The notes beneath the pieces were generated by a model. It saw only the letters and a program-made list of their open reading frames with translations, was not told where the DNA came from and ran no database searches. The position numbers were made by a program, and so were the translations under genes. 64,000 nt of DNA from Methylobacterium sp. J-078 (GTDB lineage: Bacteria > Pseudomonadota > Alphaproteobacteria > Rhizobiales > Beijerinckiaceae): positions 1-64,000 of the forward strand of contig NZ_JAKSYI010000038.1 of the NCBI RefSeq assembly GCF_022829285.1, read 5' to 3'. Below, one piece after another: positions 22,286-34,892 of the stretch; within the stretch, counting starts at the first letter, position 1, and the number at the start of each line of letters is the position of its first letter.

Positions 22286-22557
22286 GATGATACCTGCTTC
22301 CCGCAAAAGACAGGCTGGTCAGGATATGGTTAACCGATCGTGCACGCCTCCGGCGCCCGAACCTGGCATGAACCGTCAAGCTATATCCCCTCCCCCTGCC
22401 CCGAGACGGTATGCATCCGAAGGCTCAATCGCCGCTCGATCGAAGCTGATCGACAGGATTGCAACCATGTGGTGTGGCAATTCAAGGCCGATGCGATCGG
22501 ATTCTTTCTCTCGATGACGTAGCGATTTCGTTTACATCGGCCTGCGATGCTGGGCGT

Positions 22558-24099
22558 ATGTTCGGGACGTTTCCCACTTCATCGATCGTTGCTCGCCTCG
22601 GGAACGACGAGCGCGGCGGCGTCGCGGTCATCTTCGCACTGACGCTGATTCCGCTCCTCACCCTCTCCGGCATGGCGATCGACCTCAGCGCCAACACCAA
22701 CGCCCGCCGCAAAGCTCAGAACGCGGTCGACGCGGCCGCTCTCTCGCTCGCCAAGCTTCCCTCCGGGCTGACGGACGCGGACCTCGCCGACCGCGCCAAG
22801 CATCAGGTGACGGCCGCGATGGCGGGGAGCCAGGCGCTCGGCGTCGACGTCGCCACGCTCCGCTCGGGGGACACCATCCGGGTGACCCTGACCGGCAGGA
22901 CGCCGACGACGCTGGCGCGCGTGGCGGGCTTCGACAGCCTGGCCTTGAACGTGTCCGGAACCGCGAAGCGCGGATCGGGCAACCTCGAAGTGGCCCTCGT
23001 CCTCGACAACACAGGCTCGATGGCCGGCGCCAAGCTCGTCAACCTGAAGGCGGCGGCCACCGACCTCGTCAACAACCTCTTCGAGGAGGTCGATCCGGCC
23101 AAGCCGAACGCCCTGAAGGTCGCCGTCGTCCCGTTCTCGATGACGGTGAATGTCGGGGCGGGCCGCGCCGGGGACGCCTTCATCGACAAGGACGGCTTGG
23201 CCTCCTACCATTCCCAGATCTTCGCCGCGAAGGCCAACCGCCTGACCCTCTTCACGAAGATGGGCGTCGCCTGGGGCGGATGCGTCGAGAGCCGGCCCGC
23301 GCCCTACGACGTCGACGACACCCCCGCGAGCCAGGGCACCCCCGACAGCCTGTTCGTGCCCTACTTCGCCCCGGACGAGTCGGACAAGGACGGCAACGCG
23401 GCGAACGACTACCTCGACGACTACAGCGATTTCCTCAGCCTGTACTTCGTCACCGGCGACCGCAAGCGCCAGGGTCAGACGGCCAAGTACGGCACCAGCT
23501 GGAAGGTTTCGCGGTCGGACAGGGGCGGGGCCGGCTACCTCTACGGCCCGAACGCGGGCTGCGAGCTCCAGCCCATCACCCCGCTGACCACCTCGAAGGC
23601 CACGGTCACCGCAGCCATCGCGAGCATGAGCGTGATCGGGGACACTAACGTCGCCCTCGGGCTCGCCTGGGGCTGGCACGTGCTCTCGCCGACGGGCCCC
23701 CTGGTCAGGGGCGCGCCCTACACGGACACCACCACGCGCAAGTTCGCCGTGGTGATGACGGACGGGCAGAACACCAGCGGCTACCGGAACAACAGCAACG
23801 AGTCGGTCTATTCGGGCATCGGCTACATCTGGGCCAATCGCCTCGGCACGACGTCGTCGGATACCGCGATCCGCACCCGCGCCATCGACGGGCGGCTCGC
23901 CCTGCTCTGCTCCAACATGAAGAGCGCCGGCATCCAGATCTTCGCGGTCCGGGTCGAGGTCAGCGACGGCACGAGCGACCTGCTGCGCAACTGCGCCAGC
24001 AACCCGTCCATGTTCTACGACGTGTCCGATTCCGGAAACCTGACGGCCACCTTCCGGGCGATCGGGGCCCAGATCAGCGAATTGAGGATTTCGCGGTGA
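22558..24099 (+). CDS. TadG-like pilus assembly protein with von Willebrand A domain
   Basis: A protein of about 513 residues. The N-terminus is the TadE/TadG pattern: GGVAVIFALTLIPLLTLSGMA, a hydrophobic type IV-pilin-like segment after a charged leader, followed by AIDLSANTNARRKAQNAVDA. A vWA domain starts near residue 140 with the MIDAS-type motif LVLDNTGSMAGAK and continues with VMTDGQNTSG. The ATG at 22558 is chosen; the longer frame begins with TTG at 22459. Such proteins are anchored in the inner membrane and face the periplasm. It overlaps the next TadE-like gene by four bases. No tad ATPase, secretin or prepilin peptidase is in this window, so the machinery is elsewhere. Confidence 0.75.
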   Translation: MFGTFPTSSIVARLGNDERGGVAVIFALTLIPLLTLSGMAIDLSANTNARRKAQNAVDAAALSLAKLPSGLTDADLADRAKHQVTAAMAGSQALGVDVATLRSGDTIRVTLTGRTPTTLARVAGFDSLALNVSGTAKRGSGNLEVALVLDNTGSMAGAKLVNLKAAATDLVNNLFEEVDPAKPNALKVAVVPFSMTVNVGAGRAGDAFIDKDGLASYHSQIFAAKANRLTLFTKMGVAWGGCVESRPAPYDVDDTPASQGTPDSLFVPYFAPDESDKDGNAANDYLDDYSDFLSLYFVTGDRKRQGQTAKYGTSWKVSRSDRGGAGYLYGPNAGCELQPITPLTTSKATVTAAIASMSVIGDTNVALGLAWGWHVLSPTGPLVRGAPYTDTTTRKFAVVMTDGQNTSGYRNNSNESVYSGIGYIWANRLGTTSSDTAIRTRAIDGRLALLCSNMKSAGIQIFAVRVEVSDGTSDLLRNCASNPSMFYDVSDSGNLTATFRAIGAQISELRISR

Positions 24100-24665
24100 C
24101 GCGCGCCGTCACGGGGCGCCGTTTGCGTGGCGCCGTGCGCCGCTTCCGGTCACACCAGGACGGGGCCACCGCCGTGGAGTTCGCCATGGTGGGAATGCCC
24201 TTCTTCGCTCTCGTCTGCGCCCTGTTCGAGGCCGGCCTCCTGCTGCTCTCCCAGCAGACCCTCGACAACGCCCTCGACTATGCCGCCCGGACCGTGTTCA
24301 CGGGCGCCTTCCAGGAGGGCTACGACGGAACACCGGCGGCGGACCGGCTGCGCAGGGCCGTCTGCTCCCAGGTCACGATCTTTCCCTGCGCGGATGTCCT
24401 GATCGACGTCGCGACCGCGTCGAGCTTCTCGGCCCGCTCCGTCGCCGGCCCCTACGATGCCGCGACGAAGAGCGTCGCGGCCGGCTTCGGGAAGACGTTC
24501 CAATGCCCATCGGGCAACGACGTCGTCACGGTGCGGGCGGCCGTCGTGGTGCCGCGCTATTTCGGGTTCCTCGACCCCGACGCCATGGCCATCGGCACGG
24601 CCGCGCGCCTCGTGGTCTCGACGGTGATCTTCCGGGCCGAGCCCTATGCCACAGGCCGGTGCTGA
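24096..24665 (+). CDS. TadE-family pilus assembly protein
   Basis: A 189-aa protein starting at a GTG that overlaps the previous stop. It has the TadE signature GATAVEFAMVGMPFFALVCALFEAG, a single hydrophobic segment after a basic leader, followed by a periplasmic domain containing two pairs of cysteines (CSQVTIFPC, CPSG...GRC). TadE-like pseudopilins are processed in the inner membrane and support Flp pilus assembly. Middle gene of a three-gene unit. Confidence 0.75.
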   Translation: MTRAVTGRRLRGAVRRFRSHQDGATAVEFAMVGMPFFALVCALFEAGLLLLSQQTLDNALDYAARTVFTGAFQEGYDGTPAADRLRRAVCSQVTIFPCADVLIDVATASSFSARSVAGPYDAATKSVAAGFGKTFQCPSGNDVVTVRAAVVVPRYFGFLDPDAMAIGTAARLVVSTVIFRAEPYATGRC

Positions 24666-24686
24666 GCGTGGGCGAGGGCTAATCCC

Positions 24687-25256
24687 ATGCGCATCCCGCT
24701 CCAGCGCCTCCGCAATGCGGACGGCATCGCCGCCGTCGAGTTCGCCCTTGTGGCGCCGTTCCTCATCCTGCTCCTCATGGGGACCGTCGAGTTTCCCCGC
24801 GCCTACGGCATCAGCCAGGGCCTGGAGAAAGCCGCGCGGACCATGGCGGACCTGATCTCGCGCGGCAGCCTCAACAGCGTGGACGACGTCTACGCCGCCG
24901 GCGCCGCCGTGACCTTCCCGTACGACACCTCGGCCGCCCGGATCGTCCTCACGGCCGTCGGCGTCTACGCCAAGGGCCAGGGCCTCGTGGCCCGCGTCTG
25001 CTCGACGGCCGCCCGGAACGACACGGCCGCCGCCGTGGATTCCGAACTCGGCGATCCGATCCCCTCCGAGGCCAAGGCGGGTGCGCGCTACGTTACGGCC
25101 CGGATCAGCTATCGCTACGTTCCCGCCTTCGGCATCTTCCCCGGGCTGGATCAGCTCACCTTCACCAAGACGGTCTCCTGGCCGGTGCGGGGCACCGGCG
25201 CCAATAGCCTCGCCGAGACGGTCCTGCCGGGCGGGAAGGCCTGCAAGGCCACCTGA
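24687..25256 (+). CDS. TadE/TadF-like pseudopilin
   Basis: A 189-aa protein with the TadE-like N-terminus DGIAAVEFALVAPFLILLLMG, then GISQGLEKAARTMADLISRG and a periplasmic beta-rich remainder. It follows the previous TadE-like gene by 21 bases. The Glu five residues into the hydrophobic stretch (AVEFA) is the conserved residue of type IV-like prepilins. Probably a second minor pseudopilin. Confidence 0.75.
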   Translation: MRIPLQRLRNADGIAAVEFALVAPFLILLLMGTVEFPRAYGISQGLEKAARTMADLISRGSLNSVDDVYAAGAAVTFPYDTSAARIVLTAVGVYAKGQGLVARVCSTAARNDTAAAVDSELGDPIPSEAKAGARYVTARISYRYVPAFGIFPGLDQLTFTKTVSWPVRGTGANSLAETVLPGGKACKAT

Positions 25257-26192: not shown

Positions 26193-26837
26193 ATGCGCAC
26201 CATCACGCTTGTCACCCAGAAGGGTGGCGCCGGGAAAACCACGATTGCCGCCTCCCTGGCCGTCGCCGCCGCACAGGCCGGTGAAAGGGTGATCGCCCTC
26301 GACCTCGACCCGCAGGGGTCCCTCGCCGCCTGGGGCGATACGCGTTCCGCCGAAGAACCGGCCGTCGACCGGATCGGGCCGGACAACCTCGCGAACCTGG
26401 CGGCGATCCTGAAGGCCCTCGCGGCCGAGGGCTACACCCTGGCGATCCTCGACACGGCCGGTATCGCCTCGACCAGCGGCAACCTGGCGATGCAGGCGGC
26501 AGACCTGGCCCTGATCCCGGCGCGCCCGTCCCGGCTCGATCTTCAGGCCACCATGCCGACCATCGAGGCCCTGATGCGTCTGGAAATGCGCGAGCGCTTC
26601 GCCTTCATCCTGAATCAGTGCCCGGCCGGGCGCAGCTCCCGCGCCACGGAAGCCGCGAACGGTCTTGCGATGTTCGGCGTGCTGGCGGAACCGATGCTGA
26701 CTCAGCGGGCCGATCACCAGGATGCCCTCGCGGCCGGGCAGGGCGTCACCGAGTATGCCCGCGACGGCAAGGCCGCCGACGAGATCCGAGCCCTTTGGGC
26801 CTGGGCCGCACGCAAGATGAAGGGCACCAAAGCATGA
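26193..26837 (+). CDS. parA: ParA-family partition ATPase (small, type Ib-like)
   Basis: A 214-aa deviant Walker ATPase. It shows the Walker A motif KGGAGKTT at residues 9-16 with the signature Lys, the A' block DLDPQGSLAAWGD, and the Walker B-like ILDTAG. No N-terminal helix-turn-helix domain is present, so it belongs to the short class (ParF-like), in which the partner protein does the DNA binding. It moves plasmid copies apart by dynamic binding to the nucleoid. An RHH gene follows after 13 bases. Repeats on both sides fit autoregulation and a flanking partition site. Confidence 0.85.
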   Translation: MRTITLVTQKGGAGKTTIAASLAVAAAQAGERVIALDLDPQGSLAAWGDTRSAEEPAVDRIGPDNLANLAAILKALAAEGYTLAILDTAGIASTSGNLAMQAADLALIPARPSRLDLQATMPTIEALMRLEMRERFAFILNQCPAGRSSRATEAANGLAMFGVLAEPMLTQRADHQDALAAGQGVTEYARDGKAADEIRALWAWAARKMKGTKA

Positions 26838-26850
26838 TGGGCTTGCAGGC

Positions 26851-27156
26851 ATGACCAAGCGTCCGTCCATCATCGGCGGCCTGAATCTTCCCGGAACCGA
26901 AGCCCGTGCGGCGATTGCCGACCGGGCTCCGGAGGCGGCGCCCGCCGCGACGCCGGCGTCGCGCAAGGCCCGGCCCGATATCGTCCATACTTCCGTCTAC
27001 CTGCCCCGGGAGGTCCACCGCCGCCTGCGGGAGATCGCATTCACCCGCGATGTGAAGATCCACGACGTCATTATGGAGGGGATCGACGCCGCGCTACGGA
27101 AGCACGGACACCCCACCGTCGAGGCCCTCAAGGTCGGACGCAAGGCAGGGGACTAG
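26851..27156 (+). CDS. Ribbon-helix-helix partition/regulator protein
   Basis: A 101-aa protein with a flexible, Ala/Pro-rich N-terminus of about 45 residues and a C-terminal RHH motif: DIVHTSVYLPREVHRRLREI, then VKIHDVIMEGIDAAL. This layout, a disordered N-terminus plus RHH, is that of ParG-type centromere-binding proteins paired with short ParA ATPases. It lies 13 bases downstream of parA and probably binds the repeats flanking the operon. The N-terminal tail would contact ParA. A CopG-like copy-number repressor is the alternative. Confidence 0.7.
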   Translation: MTKRPSIIGGLNLPGTEARAAIADRAPEAAPAATPASRKARPDIVHTSVYLPREVHRRLREIAFTRDVKIHDVIMEGIDAALRKHGHPTVEALKVGRKAGD

Positions 27157-27853: not shown

Positions 27854-27894
27854 GTTTTGCAAACCCCTGATTTGTCTGGCGAAATTCGGGGTGT

Positions 27895-28150
27895 TTATCC
27901 GCGGAGTGACGAAGTGCGTTATCCGCGGAGTGACGAATCTTTATCCGTAGAGTGACGAATCCAACATCCGCGGAGTGACGAATCCGGGTGCCCTGGAGCC
28001 GTCAATTATCCGCGGAGTGACGAATCCGCATCGGGAGTGGCTGCAAAACACCGGCTTGCCTGTCAAGAACGAACTGCTCAGTTCGAGTCCTGTTCCGTGA
28101 AAGTCGTTCGACGACAAGGCTTTGCGGTGATTTATCCGCGGAGTGACGAA
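27895..28150 (+). repeat. Iteron array of a plasmid replication origin
   Basis: Six copies of TTATCCGCGGAGTGACGAA start at 27895, 27919, 27941, 27964, 28006 and 28132. The third has two changed bases (CCGTAGAG) and the fourth two (ACATCC). The first four are spaced 22-24 bases, about two helical turns, as expected for iterons bound by a Rep protein. The last copy abuts the stop codon of the rep gene. The TTATCC start resembles part of a DnaA box. This is almost certainly oriV of the replicon. Confidence 0.85.
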
Positions 28151-29302
28151 TCAATCGCCCTTCGTGACGGGTCGACGCACGGATTTGCGGCGCGTTCCTT
28201 TCGGCTTGAGCTTGGGAAGCGTCACCAGGTCGCTTTCCATGACTGCGAGCCCCCCTTCGCTGCGGCCGTAGAAGACCACGGAATCGTCGCTGTGCAGGAA
28301 GACGAGATGGTAGCCGGGCAGGGACCCCGCCTCGCCGATGCCGCGCACGGTCGCCCGGAACTTGAACAGGGGCTGGCGGCTGCCGACCTTCTTCTGCAGC
28401 AGATCGAGGCCGACCTTCCAGCGTCCCTGGTCACCGCAATGCTTCCGGGCGAGCTCGTACAACCGCTTCTCGGTGGCCTTCCGGAGCTTGAAGTAGTCCT
28501 GGTCGATGCTCAGCACCTCCAGCGCCATGGCGGCGTCGAAGGTGAACGCGCTGAGCGTGATGCGCAGCTCCTCGAGGCGGTTGTTCGGCCCCCGGGTGAT
28601 CGTCTCCCAGGCATCGATCAGGCCAAAACCCTTGGTACGGCGCCGGGCCGGCTTACCCGTCGCGATCGAGGTCTTTATGCGGGTGCCGACGAGCCGCTCC
28701 AGGGCCTGCTCCAAAAGGTCGTAGCCGCGCCCCGACGTGCTGCGGTTGGTGAAGGTCAGGACGTCGTGCGCCTTGATGCTGACCGTGCGGGACACCGGTT
28801 CGCCGCGGTTCACGGCGTCGACCACCTTGGACACGCAGGTGAGGACGATGTCCTTGTCGTGGATGGTCGCCCGGCCCTTCACGGAGGGCGTCACCTCCAG
28901 GGTCACGCCGTTGTGCTCATAGGTCAGGATGCGCTGGTCGCCGTCCTCGATCGCGTAGACCGGGTGTTCCATGGTCGCCAGCTCGTCCTTGGGCGCCGCG
29001 GCCCGTCCGGTGGCGATGAACAGGTCGATCTGCTGCGTGAGGGCCTGGCTTGGGCCCTCAGGCGCGCCGGATTGGCCGCTGGCGGCCTTCGGCGCCGTCT
29101 CGAGGGGCTCGGCCTGGATCTGGGCTGCCGCCCCTCCTGAGGCGTCCTGACGCTTCCGTGCGCCCGTCCCGGCCTGGTCCGCCGAGGCCTGCTGGCGCTC
29201 GGCATCCGCCAGGACCTGCCTGCCGAGGCCCTCGAAGGCTTTGGCGAGGTTCGGATCGAGGTCGCCCAGGAGGTCGCCGAGCTGCTTTGGCTTGCCGCTC
29301 AT
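28151..29302 (-). CDS. repA: RepA-type plasmid replication initiator
   Basis: A 383-aa protein resembling the alphaproteobacterial replication initiator family RPA. An N-terminal region of about 110 residues is Gln/Ala-rich. The core follows from about residue 125: EHPVYAIEDGDQRILTYEHNG, the DIVLTCVSKVVDAVNRGEP stretch and IKAHDVLTFTNRSTSGRGY. A second winged-helix-like half contains the YELARKHCGDQGRWKVGLDLLQ block, and the tail is basic. The ATG at 29302 follows GGAG by eight bases. It would bind the iterons lying directly behind its 3' end, open the origin and recruit the helicase. Having the iterons at the 3' rather than the 5' side means they are not simply its own promoter operator. Confidence 0.85.
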   Translation of the reverse strand: MSGKPKQLGDLLGDLDPNLAKAFEGLGRQVLADAERQQASADQAGTGARKRQDASGGAAAQIQAEPLETAPKAASGQSGAPEGPSQALTQQIDLFIATGRAAAPKDELATMEHPVYAIEDGDQRILTYEHNGVTLEVTPSVKGRATIHDKDIVLTCVSKVVDAVNRGEPVSRTVSIKAHDVLTFTNRSTSGRGYDLLEQALERLVGTRIKTSIATGKPARRRTKGFGLIDAWETITRGPNNRLEELRITLSAFTFDAAMALEVLSIDQDYFKLRKATEKRLYELARKHCGDQGRWKVGLDLLQKKVGSRQPLFKFRATVRGIGEAGSLPGYHLVFLHSDDSVVFYGRSEGGLAVMESDLVTLPKLKPKGTRRKSVRRPVTKGD

Positions 29303-29567
29303 CCCGCAATCTCCGGATGCCGGTCGAGCGCATCGCCAGACCCTGGAAGGCGCGCTTCGCGGTCGACGGGTGCGAGGTCCGGCGCGCATTCGGCCGGTGG
29401 ACGGGACGGTGTCATGAATGGTTCTTACCCGCTCTTCCCGTCAAAACCGATGGGCACGCCGTGGTTCGAACCCGGCGCAGGCCTTGCCCGATGCCCCCGC
29501 CCCGGATTGCGCTGGCCGCTGCGCCGCGCCATTCTGGGACAGAGCCCGAGCCCGGCACGGAGATCGC

Positions 29568-30557
29568 GTGACCACCGCAACGATCTTTTCGCCGACCGCG
29601 GGGGGCGGGCCTCTCCCCGAACCCGGCACCGACCTCCCTTCCGAACTTGCCGCGGTCGTTCGGGCCTACCAGCGCGCGAGCAAGGCGGAGGCGACTTTGC
29701 GAGCCTATCGCGGTGACGCGGTGCTGTTCCAGGACTGGTGCGCCCTGTACGGGTTCGCCGCCCTGCCGGCCTCGCCCCGGGCCGTGGCCGGGTTCCTGAC
29801 GCACGAGGCGGAGAGGGGACGAGCGGCCTCGACCATCGGCCGGCGCTGCGCCGCGATCCGCTACGCGCACAAGCTCGCCGGCCTGCCGGACCCGACCGAC
29901 GACGCGGAGGTGCGGGCGACCATGAAGGGCATCCGGCGCACCATCGGCACGGCGCCGGTGCAGAAGGCCGCCGCCACCGTCGAGGTGCTCGCCGCTATGC
30001 TGATGCGCACCCCCGACACGATGACCGGCAAGCGGGATCGTGCCCTGCTCGGCCTCGGCTTCGCGGGGGCCTTCCGCCGCTCGGAGCTGGTCGCCCTCGA
30101 TGTCGCCGACCTGCGCGAGGACCGGGACGGCCTGCGGGTCCGGGTGCGGCGCTCGAAGACGGATCAGGAGGGCCGCGGCTTCGAGAAGGCCATCCCGCAC
30201 GGGCGCTTCATTCGGCCGGTTTTCCTGGTGAAGGACTGGCTCGCGGCCGGCGGGATCACGGAGGGGCCGGTGTTCCGCCCCGTCTCGCGGGCGGGGCGGG
30301 TGCGGGCCGGCGCGCCGCGCCTCACCACCCAGGCGGTGGCCGACATCGTCAAGCGCTACACCGGGGCCGCCGGCCTCGACGCCGCGACCTTCGCCGCCCA
30401 CTCCCTGCGGGCCGGGTATATCACCACGGCCGCCGAGCGCGGCGCGGATCTGGCCCGGATCATGGACCAGTCGGGCCACCGCGATCCCCGCACGGTAGTG
30501 GGCTACATCCGCCGCGCCAACGCCTTCAAGGATCACTCGGGAAGCGGGTTCCTGTAG
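29568..30557 (+). CDS. Tyrosine recombinase / integrase
   Basis: A 329-aa phage-integrase-type recombinase. The N-terminal SAM-like domain ([20 protein letters not shown], residues 33-120) is followed by the catalytic domain. The active-site Arg is in [11 protein letters not shown], the Lys in RRSKTDQEG, the HxxR in HSLRAGY, and the final His and Tyr are in [14 protein letters not shown], so all catalytic residues are present. It starts at a GTG preceded by GGAG at six bases. Beside a plasmid rep gene it could resolve replicon multimers, or integrate and excise the element. It converges with the flagellin gene over a hairpin terminator. Confidence 0.85.
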
Positions 30558-30576
30558 GGGCCGCCTCAAACGAGAA

Positions 30577-30598
30577 CGGCCGGGGTTTCCCCCGGCCG
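30577..30598. terminator. Hairpin between converging integrase and flagellin genes
   Basis: CGGCCGGGG (30577-30585) pairs perfectly with CCCCGGCCG (30590-30598) around a TTTC loop. It sits 20 bases after the integrase stop and 25 bases after the flagellin stop, so it can end transcription from both sides. There is no U-tract on the plus strand. Confidence 0.6.
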
Positions 30599-30623
30599 CC
30601 CGTCGTCGTGAAGGCCGATCCGC

Positions 30624-33600
30624 TCAGCGGAGCAGTTGCAGGATGCCCTGCTGGGCCTGGTTGGCCAGCGAGAGGGCCGAGGTGGCGATGGAGTTGCGGG
30701 TCGACAGGGCCTGCGAGTTGGCGGCTTCCTCGTTGAGGTCCGCGTTCACGAGGTTGGCCGAGCCGATGTCGAGGATGTTGATCAGATTCTTCGAGAAGTC
30801 CTGACGGTTCTGCACCACCGAAAGGTTGGAGCCGAAGGTCGAGGATTGCGTACGGAGGTTGCTGGTTGCGGTGGTCAGCTTCTCGATGACGCTGTTGATC
30901 TCGGCGTCCGTCTGGAAGTTCCCGGACACTTCGTTCAGGCCGAGGCCCTCCGCATCGAACTTGACGCCCTGGATGTCGAGCGCCGACGAGTTCTTCTCGT
31001 TGAACGCGATATGCAGCGTGTTGTCCGCGACATTGCTGCTGGTCCGGTAGAGAAGGTTGACGCCGTTGTAGCTCGAGTCCTTGGCCTGCTGGGTAATCTG
31101 GGACAGCAGCGTATTGAACTGCTTGGCCAGGTTCTCGCGCACTGAGCTCGACCCCTTGCTACCGCCCACATCGGTACCGGTGCTCGTGATGAGCGCCGAG
31201 CTTGACGTACCAAAGCCGATGTTGTCGGTTCCGCTGGCCTGGATCGCGAGCTTCTGGTCGGCGCCAGCCGCCGTGGTCGAGATCTGCAGCTTGCCGTTGG
31301 TGAAGCTGGCCTTCACCTTCCCCGAGAGGCCAGTATCCGCTTCGATTTGGTCATTGATGGTCTTGACCAAGGTTGCGGCGGTAATGGTCGTGTTGGCGGC
31401 GGTGTTGACGTTGATCGTTTTGGCGTTGCCGGCACCGAGCTTGATACTGAACGACGCGTTGGTGGCTGCGACACCACCCAGGGCGGTGGTGGCACTGAGG
31501 GTTGTGGTACCTGCGACCAGGGCGGTGGACGAACCGTCGGTGGCGTCGGTGCCCGAGGAGGTGACGGGGGCGGCCACGCCCGTTGCAGTGCCGGCCACAG
31601 AGGTGCCGTTCACGGAGGCGGTTACACCGAGGCCAAGACCAGCGGTATCCTTGCTCGCAGTCAAGACCGCAGCGGCCCCGACACCGACGGCGTTCGAGGA
31701 AACGGTCAGCTTGTTACCGACGAAGGAGACCTTCGCGTTCACTGCCGCGGGCGTGGTGCCGTCGGCCGCGACACCAGCGCCAGCGCCGGTCCCGGTGCCC
31801 GTGCCGGTGGCGCGGAGCTTCTGATTGATCGCCTCGGCGATCTTGGCCTGCGTTGCGTTCTCGCCGATCGCGACGTTGTTGGCGTCCAAGCTCAGGGCGT
31901 TGATCGTGACGGCGGCGGTGTTGGTGCCGTCCCCGACGGTGAACTGGCTCGACTTTCCACCGGACAGATCGACGATCGGAGCGGCAGACCCGGCACCGGC
32001 AGCGGTCGCCCGCGTGCCGAAGCCGAGGCCGATGGTATCGGTCGTCGACGAGAAAGTCGGAGCCGCCGTGGCCGTGTTGACCCCGACGAAGGTGAGATGG
32101 TTGGTGCCATCGACGTAGGCCGAGACACCGGGGTTGGTGGTGGCGAGCTGCTTGTTGATCGCCTCCAGCACCTGCTTCTGGTTCGGGTTGGTGCCGATGG
32201 CGACGTTGGACGCGTCAGTGCTCGCAGCGCTCAGGGTGATCGCCGTGCCGCCGTTGACCTGGAACGAAGCGGATTGGCCGCTGCTCAGGTCGAACGAGGG
32301 CCCGAGTGTAGCGCCCAGCTGAGTTTTTGCGGGGGTACCGAAGAGGCCAATCTGGTCGCTGTTTCCAGCACCGGACGTCGTCACGACGGGAGAGGCCGTA
32401 CCGGTGAAGGTCAGGACGCCGCCGGGCGCCGTCGCGGTCACGCCGGCATCGAGCTGCTCGTTCAGGGCATCGAGCAAGGCAGCTTGGTTGAATGACGAGG
32501 TGAGCTTGGTCCCGTCCGATTTCAGGGTATCAGCGTTGATGGTAACCTTCTGTCCACCGACATCGAACGTGGTCTGCTGTCCCTGACCCAGGGTGAAGGG
32601 GCCGGCTACCGTCGCCCCGGTGACTGCCGTGGTGGTTGCCGTCGGAGCCGTCGTCGCCGCGATCGTACCGGCCGTCGGCGTCGTACTGGCGGCGGGGGCG
32701 GCGCTGATAGTGTTGGCCGTGGCCGTGAAGGTGTTGAAGCCGATGCCAGTGGCGCCGCCGGCGGTGTTCGTGCCCGCGACGACGGAGAGCTGGGCATCGG
32801 GGCCGAGATCCGTCGAGGTGAAGACGAGGCTGCCAGTAGCGCCGCCCGAGAGGCTGACGCTGGCAGAAGAACCGTTGTCCTTTAACTGCTTGTTGATGGC
32901 GTCGCGAATGGCGGCCGGGGTCGCCGAGGTACCGAGGGTTCCGCCGAGGGTGTCGGTGGCCGAATCCTTGTTGAGGGTCACCACGACCGACTTCGCGCCA
33001 TCCCCAACCGTAAGGCTGGTCGTCGCGTTGTTGGTGAAATCCGTGTTGGCGGAAAGGGCCGCCGAGGCGGTGACCGTCGCAGCGGTCCGGGCGGTCGAGG
33101 CGCCGAAGCCGATGTTGATGCCAGCATTGGCCGAGCCGGAGACCTGGACCTGCGCGGCCGAGCCCGTCGCGGTGGTCGAGAAGGTGATGCGGCCATCGGG
33201 GCTCGCGGCGGCCGTGAGCTTTCCGGCGAGGTTGCTGCTGCCGCTGATCTGGCCGTTGATGGCCGAGATGATCTGATCGGAAGTGACCTTGGTCAGGTCC
33301 GATGCCGAGGAGGCCAGCGTGGTAGAATCGAGGCGGATGGTCGTCTTGGTCAGTCCACCGTCGAGAGAGATGTCGAGGGAGGCATCCTTCGCGGGGTTCG
33401 ACAGGTCGAAGGTGGTGACACCGTTCGCGGTCGTTCCGAGCGATGCGAGGGGCGCGGTGCCGGTGACCTTCGCCGCAACGGCCGCCGAGCCGCCAAGCAC
33501 GCCGCCGCCGCCGCCGGTCTTGTCGGCGAGGGCCTGGCTGGCCGTGGACTTGGCGGTGTCGAGGAGCTTGGTGATCGAGGTGATGCCCTGGTTGGCGGCC

Positions 33601-33827
33601 TGGATCGTTTGGACACCGTTCGAGATGCCGTCGAGGAGCGCGCTCAGGTCACCCGAGCGAGCGGACAGGTTCTGAGAGGTGAAGAAATTCGTCGGGTTGT
33701 CGAGCGCGGAATTGACCTTTTTACCCGTCGACAGGCGGTTCTGCGTCGTGGAGAGCAGGTTGGCCGTATCCTGGAGGGACAGGAGGTTCTGGCGGGTTGC
33801 CGACGAGAGGGTAATGCCGGACGACAT
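30624..33827 (-). CDS. Giant flagellin with repeated variable-region modules
   Basis: A 1067-aa flagellin. The N-terminal D0/D1 part (residues 1-110: ITLSSATRQNLLSLQDTANL, LSTGKKVNSALDNP) and the C-terminal part (residues 895-1067, ending SIATSALSLANQAQQGILQLLR) are typical of alphaproteobacterial flagellins. Between them lie about 780 extra residues that appear to be six modules of 85-120 residues. Each has an AINxQL-type helix, a GxLxF strand and an IGFG-like end (near residues 245, 370, 500, 605, 735 and 880), similar to flagellin IN modules. Most flagellins are 270-500 residues. The start at 33827 is preceded by AGAAGGA. Extra modules would form large surface domains on the filament and are obvious targets for glycosylation. 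Confidence 0.85.
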   Translation of the reverse strand: MSSGITLSSATRQNLLSLQDTANLLSTTQNRLSTGKKVNSALDNPTNFFTSQNLSARSGDLSALLDGISNGVQTIQAANQGITSITKLLDTAKSTASQALADKTGGGGGVLGGSAAVAAKVTGTAPLASLGTTANGVTTFDLSNPAKDASLDISLDGGLTKTTIRLDSTTLASSASDLTKVTSDQIISAINGQISGSSNLAGKLTAAASPDGRITFSTTATGSAAQVQVSGSANAGINIGFGASTARTAATVTASAALSANTDFTNNATTSLTVGDGAKSVVVTLNKDSATDTLGGTLGTSATPAAIRDAINKQLKDNGSSASVSLSGGATGSLVFTSTDLGPDAQLSVVAGTNTAGGATGIGFNTFTATANTISAAPAASTTPTAGTIAATTAPTATTTAVTGATVAGPFTLGQGQQTTFDVGGQKVTINADTLKSDGTKLTSSFNQAALLDALNEQLDAGVTATAPGGVLTFTGTASPVVTTSGAGNSDQIGLFGTPAKTQLGATLGPSFDLSSGQSASFQVNGGTAITLSAASTDASNVAIGTNPNQKQVLEAINKQLATTNPGVSAYVDGTNHLTFVGVNTATAAPTFSSTTDTIGLGFGTRATAAGAGSAAPIVDLSGGKSSQFTVGDGTNTAAVTINALSLDANNVAIGENATQAKIAEAINQKLRATGTGTGTGAGAGVAADGTTPAAVNAKVSFVGNKLTVSSNAVGVGAAAVLTASKDTAGLGLGVTASVNGTSVAGTATGVAAPVTSSGTDATDGSSTALVAGTTTLSATTALGGVAATNASFSIKLGAGNAKTINVNTAANTTITAATLVKTINDQIEADTGLSGKVKASFTNGKLQISTTAAGADQKLAIQASGTDNIGFGTSSSALITSTGTDVGGSKGSSSVRENLAKQFNTLLSQITQQAKDSSYNGVNLLYRTSSNVADNTLHIAFNEKNSSALDIQGVKFDAEGLGLNEVSGNFQTDAEINSVIEKLTTATSNLRTQSSTFGSNLSVVQNRQDFSKNLINILDIGSANLVNADLNEEAANSQALSTRNSIATSALSLANQAQQGILQLLR

Positions 33828-34318
33828 GACGGTTGATCCTTCTGATCAAGAACCCTCCTGTTTTCGAGGGCCCGTCACCCAAGGGCCGCAACCGCTAAGC
33901 GCCCGTTAAATCATTCCGGCCCAACCCCCTCCCCGTGCGGATTTTGTTCGTATGGTTGATGAAGCGTTAAGGGACGGGTGAAGCGAACGCTTCGGATCTC
34001 ACGACGCCCGTCATCAACCCGTCCCGGAGGACGGCGCCGGGGACAGATCCCCTTCGAGGGGCCGAGACGGGGCGATCACGCGCGGGCGAACAACGTCGTT
34101 GCTGCTGGTATACCTCGTTTCGGACCAGGACTTTGAACGATCTGATCACTGGATTTCGTCAGAAAATCCGACAAAGCTGCGTCCGGTGCGGTCCTTAATC
34201 CCGCTCACCGTGTGTCGTGCGACACGTCGAGAATGAAAACGGCTTTCTATCTTTAGTTCAGACAGACAGAAACGGACCAGCCACTTGGTTCGTACGGAAC
34301 TGGAGAGAAAAAGCCCTC
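33828..34318. other. Divergent intergenic region upstream of flagellin
   Basis: About 490 bases between the divergent flagellin and small secreted-protein genes. It must carry both promoters; no clear sigma-28 or sigma-54 consensus is visible to me. No gene is supported on either strand. Confidence 0.4.
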
Positions 34319-34585
34319 ATGAAGACCCGTATCGCCGCTCTTGCCACCGCCCTTGTCCTTGGCGTTGCTCCGATCTCGTCCGCGATGGCTTACGACAGCC
34401 CCTCCCGCTACACCGGCTTCGCGCCCTACGACGTCGAGACCACGGGCTCCTTCGAGCCCCGCCGCGCCGCCCCCCTGCGCAACCCCTACAGCTGCCCGAT
34501 GAGCTCGGCCTCAGAGGGCAACGCCAACCAGCAGAACTTCCCCGTCCAGCAATACGGCCAGACCTCGGGCGGTAACCGCTGCTGA
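34319..34585 (+). CDS. Small secreted protein, 88 aa
   Basis: The protein begins MKTRIAALATALVLGVAPIS with a signal peptide likely cut after AMA (residue 24). The mature part, about 64 residues, contains YDVETTGSFEPRRAAP and two cysteines (one in NPYSCPM, one as the last residue) that could form a disulfide. No family recognised. The ATG at 34319 is chosen because it opens the signal sequence; GGAGAG lies somewhat far upstream. It is followed closely by a tiny membrane-protein ORF. Confidence 0.6.
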   Translation: MKTRIAALATALVLGVAPISSAMAYDSPSRYTGFAPYDVETTGSFEPRRAAPLRNPYSCPMSSASEGNANQQNFPVQQYGQTSGGNRC

Positions 34586-34608
34586 TCGGACGGGAGACGG
34601 ATTACCCG

Positions 34609-34707
34609 ATGCTGCTGAAGGGCTTCTCCTACGCGATGATCGCCGCCTTCGCGGGCGGCCTCGCCTTCACGGTCCTGGGCTCGGCCAGCACCTTCTTCAG
34701 CCTGTAG
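34609..34707 (+). CDS. Possible 32-aa single-pass membrane protein
   Basis: A very short frame starting at an ATG 23 bases after the preceding stop, with GGGAGA about 12 bases before it. The product, MLLKGFSYAMIAAFAGGLAF and so on, has one hydrophobic helix covering residues 6-28 and ends FFSL. The position directly behind a small secreted-protein gene and the clean helix support it, but a frame of this size can occur by chance. Confidence 0.35.
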   Translation: MLLKGFSYAMIAAFAGGLAFTVLGSASTFFSL

Positions 34708-34892
34708 GAACCGCAGACTCCGCCTCGGACCCGCCCGGCCCCCGGCCGCGGCGGGTCTTCTCGTGAGGGTTGCGGGCGTGCCGTAGGTACTGCTCACCAG
34801 GGATACCGAATCAAGACGTCTTCTGCGGCGGCGGCGCGAAACTTATTGAAGATCTTGGCCTCAACCTGGACGAGCGCCCGGACACATCCTCG

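Follow-up and report, generated by a model that had tools for sequence, protein, structure and literature searches.

A six-module giant flagellin on plasmid-like DNA of Methylobacterium sp. J-078, at a putative site of flagellin gene exchange

The first 64,000 nucleotides of contig NZ_JAKSYI010000038.1 of Methylobacterium sp. J-078 (assembly GCF_022829285.1; this whole stretch is hereafter called the window, and its contig C35) carry, next to plasmid replication genes, the gene of a giant flagellin whose middle is a chain of six repeated modules. We propose, with a probability of about 0.7, that this gene encodes a modular filament subunit on plasmid-derived DNA and has been replaced, on this plasmid backbone, by other flagellins of the same class. 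As far as sequences go, the proposal is carried by the class of the flagellin, its modules, the series of module numbers in the genus and a mismatch in kinship between the flagellin and its backbone.

Results

Flagellin gene and its modules

The reading frame is unbroken over 1067 codons, with the GC pattern of coding DNA (Table 1), and the protein has a computed mass of 104.5 kDa and a pI of 5.0; with 1067 amino acids (aa), it is longer than the 1000 aa above which a flagellin is called giant. Its ends are those of a flagellin: in Pfam, Flagellin_N (PF00669) covers residues 11–103 (E 3.4e-11; 43.8 bits, cut-off 26.6) and Flagellin_C (PF00700) covers residues 982–1066 (E 2.5e-6; 28.2 bits, cut-off 23), and no family scored above its cut-off between them when the whole protein was searched. 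Long invariant runs are present at both ends in an alignment with 14 relatives, and the C-terminal 77 aa are 97% identical to those of two 7-module relatives. The product is predicted from these features to be a filament subunit that would assemble into the filament. As to a flagellinolysin, the sequence as read contains no HE pair (HExxH), and Pfam returned no peptidase family.

The middle of the protein (residues 106–890, 785 aa) contains neither Cys nor Trp and is rich in Ala, Thr, Gly and Ser (Ser and Thr together make up 27%). Aligning it with a four-module paralog, encoded on contig C99 of the same genome, allowed six modules to be drawn. They measure about 100–130 aa each and follow a common pattern (strands, a single helix with an 'AIN.QL'-like motif, further strands and an IGFG-like end), and they are strongly diverged, with pairwise identities of 19–40%. 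Indeed, blastp of the protein against itself gave the full-length match only, and repeat finding in the DNA of the gene yielded only short, diverged pieces. Since self-comparison was this weak, we used profiles of modules instead: they were built from the first, second or last modules of 24 other proteins, the window flagellin being left out (the module borders in those 24 proteins had been set with a profile seeded with modules of the window protein and the C99 paralog, which introduces a mild circularity).

The highest scores over 1000 composition shuffles were 7.0, 8.1 and 8.2 bits for the first-, second- and last-module profiles, respectively. The first-module profile scored 155.6 bits on module 1 and 40.9 bits on module 6, stayed around the shuffle level on modules 2 (8.0), 3 (5.5) and 4 (7.5), and gave nothing above 0 on module 5. 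The second-module profile scored 119.2 bits on module 2 and 25.0, 17.9, 31.6 and 36.4 bits on modules 1, 3, 4 and 5, with module 6 (6.6 bits) around the shuffle level. Likewise, the last-module profile reached 100.5 bits on module 6 and 42.3, 23.5, 15.4 and 13.8 bits on modules 1, 2, 4 and 5, while module 3 (3.5 bits) remained around the shuffle level; module 3 is thus convincing with the second-module profile only. As judged from these scores, the six-fold repetition is not due to chance: each module beats the best shuffle, albeit not with every profile.

A sequence-only reading of this DNA had described a 1067-aa flagellin at these positions, with normal conserved ends and nearly 780 extra residues forming about six modules with IGFG-like ends. 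We recover the exact frame, for which that reading had named no strand, as well as both ends and the six modules; the internal self-similarity that it expected escapes blastp but becomes apparent with the left-out profiles.

Module number in the genus

Flagellin matches were found in 98 of 99 genomes in a search of the genus. Among the loci retrieved, a motif filter retained 38 distinct full-length flagellins of the class. Modules were counted with an iterated profile, hits under 30 bits being disregarded (which dropped one weak third hit in the protein from locus L030), and the fit excluded one protein (L026), in which a partial module appears to be fused to a whole one. For the remaining 37 flagellins, length equals 370 + 118.6 aa × number of modules (r 0.997), with 0 (7 proteins), 2 (5), 3 (7), 4 (6), 5 (2), 6 (1), 7 (5) or 8 (4) modules. 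Because length tracks module number throughout this series, the size of the window flagellin is by itself unsurprising: the earlier description of two to three times the usual size holds against a FliC of about 460 aa in the same genome but not against the relatives, the largest of which reaches 1364 aa. At the level of sequence, the occurrence of both odd and even numbers favors modules that are separate domains over modules that pair as halves.

Modules were also compared by position, through the best match in a protein with a different module number. First modules matched first modules in 30 of 31 cases, last modules matched last modules in 29 of 30, and inner modules matched inner ones in 52 of 53; second modules matched second modules in 19 of 25 cases and inner modules in the other 6. 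This position-specific matching indicates that the end modules are fixed and that the middle is elastic.

The protein left out of the fit (L026, at G039:C1:3269632-3271107) is 500 aa long and has a partial module fused to a module of the last type, as if the middle had been deleted; its usual start codon reads T, not M. The other flagellin class of the J-078 genome also contains the module, with one and two copies detected by the same profile. Flagellins of the same end class from Bradyrhizobium and Rhodopseudomonas resemble the window flagellin at their ends, and nearly all the proteins from loci L064–L127 are devoid of modules (66 of 70, L064 and L065 included, gave no window-type module at E <0.01). 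One of them, a 1340-aa flagellin of Methylobacterium sp. BTF04 (L064, 5001–9020), has another type of repeat. It and the L065 protein pass the cut-off of Flagellin_IN (PF07196) and barely match the window-type module; their repeats apparently represent, on sequence grounds, a separate expansion and hence another route to a giant flagellin.

Histories of the backbone and the flagellin

Two other assemblies carry the same backbone with another flagellin at the same place. In Methylobacterium goesingense (contig G057:C153, 12,173 bases), the backbone DNA is 88.8% identical to the window over 21.6–27.2 kb and 91.0% over 27.6–29.35 kb, the recombinase is 92% identical, and the flagellin has 2 modules (566 aa). 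In genome G059, contig C198 (5.7 kb) is 89.9% identical over 27.3–29.35 kb, with a recombinase 90% identical; here the replication initiator (Rep) and the recombinase adjoin a flagellin with 3 modules (718 aa). The counterpart of 21.6–27.1 kb lies on two other contigs of G059, so that the flagellin is not seen linked to the partition ATPase ParA in that genome. The flagellin is thus linked to Rep and ParA in the window and in G057:C153, and to Rep in G059:C198.

When the window was compared with these two partners in 75-bp bins, identity was 92–99% at 30001–30600 and 83–91% up to 30825; within the flagellin it was 58–75% up to 31050, with a better patch (81–87%) at 31051–31125. Left of 30550, matches of 92–100% occur in the two partners only. 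By contrast, positions 30650–30749 are 100% identical to L017, a 7-module relative, versus 82–96% for the two partners; in the bin between (30600–30649), L017 is at 70% and the partners at 90–94%. As identity shifts in this way around the 3' end of the flagellin gene, we place the change of kinship within 30550–30650. An earlier proposal of ours, that the last 75 residues of the flagellin come from the plasmid lineage, was dropped after this bin comparison.

A tree of the end regions places the window gene with the larger flagellins (those with 4 to 8 modules, and L026) at a support of 94/95, just under the mark of the program, and its 2- and 3-module partners in other starred groups. In the approximately unbiased (AU) test, a single clade of the three flagellins that share the backbone was rejected (p-AU 2.2e-45), and so was a clade of the window and G057 flagellins (p-AU 7.1e-5); the rows had been chosen for their shared backbone before the tree was built, and the test was run after it.

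At seven other places (C99 of the same genome, G057, G059, G033:C68, G002:C8, G036:C72 and plasmid pCMU02), a flagellin end has a convergent recombinase gene, or a 3' remnant of one, no more than about 540 bp away, and the flagellins next to a recombinase or remnant have 0, 2, 3, 4 or 6 modules. No recombinase match was found within the locus DNA examined for L050–L062 and L064–L066. From these sequence comparisons, the stretch seems to be a site of flagellin gene exchange.

Structure models

D2 domains of one kind are common to flagellins, filament caps and phage tails. Module 4, modeled alone from a 62-row alignment, reached a mean predicted local distance difference test score (pLDDT) of 84.5. 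With VIA-align, which re-examines Foldseek matches only, so that unlisted families may still match, the model matched five Vibrio flagellin filaments around residues 176–269 (Z 6.4–6.8) and FliD chains (Z 5.0–5.5), further phage tail proteins also being among the best rows; the best flagellin and FliD chains cover module residues 1–103 at Z 5.0–6.8. In this middling Z range, the model may represent a D2-type outer domain. A match to Pseudomonas FliC at 175–273 (Z 5.4) hints at a possible homology of the insert with the DE region of Oceanospirillales. Searches of Pfam and of the PDB sequences with the modules gave no secure family. Flagellin_IN is the family touched by most modules (13 of 62 at E ≤1, best E 0.0016), and it gave no Pfam match in the whole giant flagellin.

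In the full-length model, the helical core is adequate, hence its match to the D0/D1 core of Caulobacter FljK (Z 16.2, 3.4 Å over 191 residues, model range 42–1029); the outermost D0 is poorly modeled, with pLDDT <50 at residues 1–7, 32–45 and 1062–1067. Among solved chains, those of the Caulobacter flagellins FljK/L/M/N (e.g. 6xky) are also nearest in sequence (E 1e-16 to 3e-19), but they have only 270–273 aa and lack outer modules. Two NCBIfam flagellin models, PRK14708 and PRK12688, score 302.9 and 277.2 bits on the window flagellin, far under their cut-offs of 1384 and 614.

Other flagellins and flagellar systems of the host

As the sequence-only reading had suggested they should be, the flagellin genes of the genome were counted: there are four (on C56, C140, C35 and C99), two of which belong to another class and encode FliC proteins of about 460 and 580 aa. 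A further, fifth match to PF00669 lies on C56 in the vicinity of flgE and is presumed to be FlgL. The genome has two FlhA genes (both above the FlhA cut-off) and two FliF-family genes, and therefore probably two flagellar systems. FlbT and FlaF are regulators of flagellins in alphaproteobacteria. FlbT is encoded beside the C99 paralog, FlbT and FlaF together on C30, and C35 carries none of the three flbT genes of the genome. In genome G007, the giant flagellin gene is followed by flbT, which also adjoins the flagellin of pCMU02, and an AraC-type regulator lies divergently upstream of the giant gene in G007 and G072.

Plasmid-like neighborhood and a doubtful join

The features of the stretch are collected in Table 1.

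Table 1. Coordinates, in the window, of the giant flagellin gene, its parts and the neighboring features
Feature	Position	Strand	Remarks
ParA-type partition ATPase	26193..26837	plus	
Small protein behind ParA	26851..27156	plus	ribbon-helix-helix match below family cut-off
Four 22-bp tandem repeats, iteron-like	27894..27984	none	
RPA-family plasmid replication initiator (Rep)	28151..29389	minus	PF10134, E 4.9e-75
Tyrosine recombinase, 379 aa	29418..30557	plus	Phage_integrase, E 6.4e-15 (Pfam); convergent with flagellin
Flagellin–recombinase gap	30558..30623	none	66 bp between convergent stops; inverted repeat, terminator-like by eye
Giant flagellin gene	30624..33827	minus	1067 aa; ATG at 33827, stop codon 30624-30626
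C-terminal D1/D0 segment	30627..31157	minus	residues 891-1067; Flagellin_C 982-1066
Module 6	31200..31511	minus	residues 773-876; end motif IGFG
Module 5	31617..32006	minus	residues 608-737; end motif LGLG
Module 4	32007..32324	minus	residues 502-607; end motif LGFG; modeled alone
Module 3	32328..32615	minus	residues 405-500; end motif IGLFG; lowest profile scores
Module 2	32724..33083	minus	residues 249-368; end motif IGFN
Module 1	33096..33482	minus	residues 116-244; end motif IGFG
N-terminal D0/D1 segment	33513..33827	minus	residues 1-105; Flagellin_N; model helices 9-33 and 51-101
Multi-copy genus-wide element	34195..34759	none	junction of the plasmid-like half of the window with the chromosomal half

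The nearness to a plasmid origin that had been noticed for the flagellin is borne out by an RPA-family Rep, a ParA and 22-bp tandem repeats; the Rep aligns over 96% of its length, at 82% identity, with that of a 66.7-kb plasmid of Methylobacterium sp. FF17. A tRNA-Lys call at 29392–29484 has no counterpart in L183 (G057) or L131 and is probably spurious. On the plasmid-like side, the window also contains Tad-type genes at 22459–25256 (one VWA and Tad, two TadE-like), which are conserved in M. goesingense. Further left, positions 1–20900 have a GC content of 39–63%, versus about 70% in the right half of the window, and include two genes of the GDP-mannose-dehydratase family and two large glycosyltransferase-like genes; this part probably consists of foreign surface-sugar genes. 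A link between the glycosyltransferases and the flagellin, near each other according to the sequence-only reading, is not supported: these genes lie at least about 10 kb away (14.7–20.8 kb) in DNA of 42–54% GC, and nothing ties them to the flagellin.

Members of the class are also encoded on three complete plasmids, pCMU02, pMRAD04 and pNYY1_1 (about 420, 405 and 430 aa, respectively), and the flagellins of pCMU02 and pNYY1_1, both counted by profile, have no module. As seen in these sequences, a lone flagellin gene on plasmid DNA is recurrent in Methylobacterium and Methylorubrum. On pNYY1_1 (L130, 6839–13718), the flagellin gene has an AraC-type regulator on one side and, on the other, genes annotated as a CBASS defense operon.

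To the right of the flagellin, the two halves of the window meet inside an element that has matches, mostly partial, in 108 of 110 genomes of the genus (query 33828–34720), and contigs C14, C118 and C145 of the same genome end inside it. In G059, the chromosomal DNA to the right of the element (94–96% identical) continues through it into the counterpart of the C118 end (95%), not into plasmid DNA. As the join differs there, the window halves have been brought together either by wrong assembly or by a recombination event. We therefore dropped the idea that the whole of C35 is a plasmid, its right part looking chromosomal (it contains frames that we take, by eye, to resemble metK, argH, murJ and psd). 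Contig C99 showed no end overlap at the lengths tried. The flagellin gene lies entirely on the plasmid-like side, and its linkage to the recombinase and Rep is found in the two other assemblies. A homology between the window and G057 at 34195–34335, considered as a 5' flank or breakpoint, was dropped as part of the multi-copy element. The sequence-only reading, the basic observation of which is upheld, contained neither the doubtful join at 34.2–34.8 kb nor the module-number series nor the mismatch between backbone and flagellin.

Discussion

In the mechanism that we propose, the helical ends of the protein would pack as a D0/D1 core, as in Caulobacter FljK, and the middle would form a chain of six D2-type domains outside the filament. 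Each module being continuous and self-contained, domains could be gained or lost singly with the core untouched, the first and last modules keeping their identity while the middle stretches. The plasmid would supply a lone filament gene, presumably served by one of the flagellar export systems of the host, and the flagellin gene on the backbone would have been replaced by types with 2, 3 or 6 modules, most likely through recombination in the conserved gene ends. Export, assembly, a thicker or decorated filament and any benefit are what we infer from this arrangement; possible benefits are grip in viscous films, adhesion and escape from flagella-binding phages.

Giant flagellins of Bermanella and Oleibacter form thick filaments (Thomson et al. 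2018, PMC6248924, in the sections drawn on here), and a Methylobacterium sp. is named there in the legend of a tree of long flagellins. Like the window flagellin, they exceed 1000 aa and have normal ends and a repeated central insert; according to the same sections, a single DE region was duplicated once, with a DX insert, under vertical inheritance. Here, by contrast, the protein has six modules, the series in the genus runs from 0 to 8 through odd as well as even numbers, and the history of the gene differs from that of the backbone. In Salmonella Typhi, the linear plasmid pBSSB1 adds a second flagellin gene (H:z66), as the plasmid-like DNA does here; the bacteria and the type of plasmid differ, and the parts of those reports that we draw on mention no module-number series (PMC1876496, PMC6860452). 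H-antigen switching, in which the variable middle is exchanged on donor fragments ending in conserved regions, resembles the exchange proposed here, although it concerns Escherichia coli and Salmonella, and a plasmid backbone and a change in domain number are involved in our case (Hu and Reeves 2020, PMC7018530, as far as the portions used extend). In the searches made of the literature on giant, plasmid-borne and Methylobacterium flagellins, we found no account of a module series or of a plasmid exchange.

Several observations weigh against our proposal. On the structural side, Foldseek gave no match at E ≤0.001 with the module 4 model; its top match in VIA-align is a phage sheath-tube protein (Z 7.4), which scores higher than any flagellin or FliD chain, and module Z scores of 5–7 lie in a range that the tool calls common. 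In Flagellin_IN, module 4 reaches 15.5 bits, under the gathering cut-off of 22.7. Taken as a whole, the model of the complete protein is weak (pLDDT 68.7, predicted template modeling score (pTM) 0.31) and gives no firm arrangement of the modules. The proteins in the length fit had been found by similarity to the window flagellin and then motif-filtered, and two further proteins of the class that this filter did not retain, L064 (1340 aa) and L065 (693 aa), have only 3 and 1 weak module hits, respectively.

The same holds for the history of the gene. Several other relatives are also 86–93% identical in bin 30600–30649, which means that the crossover is not sharp; on its 5' side, the exchanged stretch has no mapped limit, since the element at 34195 is multi-copy. 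The window gene falls within no starred branch of the end-region tree, and 4-module proteins are spread over several of its groups. Recombinases of this family are widespread (in 68 of 111 genomes at E ≤1e-40), and for most of the copies listed, no listed flagellin match is adjacent. Finally, the modules may have changed fast in place.

An ordinary giant flagellin, grown by tandem duplication within its lineage in an incidental plasmid setting and never exchanged, is an explanation that we hold to be rather improbable. Vertically inherited giant flagellins with internal duplication have been described (PMC6248924, in the sections drawn on here), and the adjacent modules 4 and 5 are indeed the most similar pair within the protein (38–40%). 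Nevertheless, modules 1–4 are closer to modules 1–4 of the 7-module relatives than to any other module of the window protein, module 5 is closer to module 6 of the same relatives, and module 6 matches the last module of the 8-module relatives; moreover, no single clade unites the flagellins that share the backbone.

It is unlikely, if a little less so, that the gene is silent or decaying plasmid cargo contributing little to a filament built from the other FliC proteins (about 460 and 580 aa). The genome does possess these two flagellins of another class, and flbT, which adjoins the C99 paralog, the G007 giant gene and the pCMU02 flagellin, is missing from C35. The intact frame, with its coding GC pattern, and the invariant runs at both ends nevertheless speak against decay, and with two FlhA and two FliF-family genes, the host could accommodate a second filament. 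A surface adhesin of tandem domains, or a secreted export substrate that has flagellin ends and builds no filament, appears very improbable: the Ser/Thr-rich domain chain recalls adhesin stalks in composition only, both ends are complete, the last 77 aa being 97% identical to relatives, and no adhesin family is among the Pfam matches.

We thus favor a modular filament subunit whose gene has been exchanged on a plasmid backbone. The broader notion that Methylobacterium plasmids are exchange sites, with a conserved Rep–ParA–recombinase backbone and a flagellin slot beside the 3' end of the recombinase, is tentative, and we rate its chances at somewhat less than even. If it is true, a single plasmid transfer or recombination event would be enough to give a host a filament of another thickness and surface. 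The module series provides natural length variants, in which filament width should rise with module number if the outer domains govern width, and its odd and even members bear on the question, left open in the parts of PMC6248924 drawn on here, of whether tandem inserts are separate domains or split halves. The mismatch between backbone and flagellin would be a case of flagellar coat change by horizontal exchange in plant-leaf bacteria, which are convenient to work with, and our sequence comparisons suggest that these bacteria are able to swap the outer coat of their flagella.

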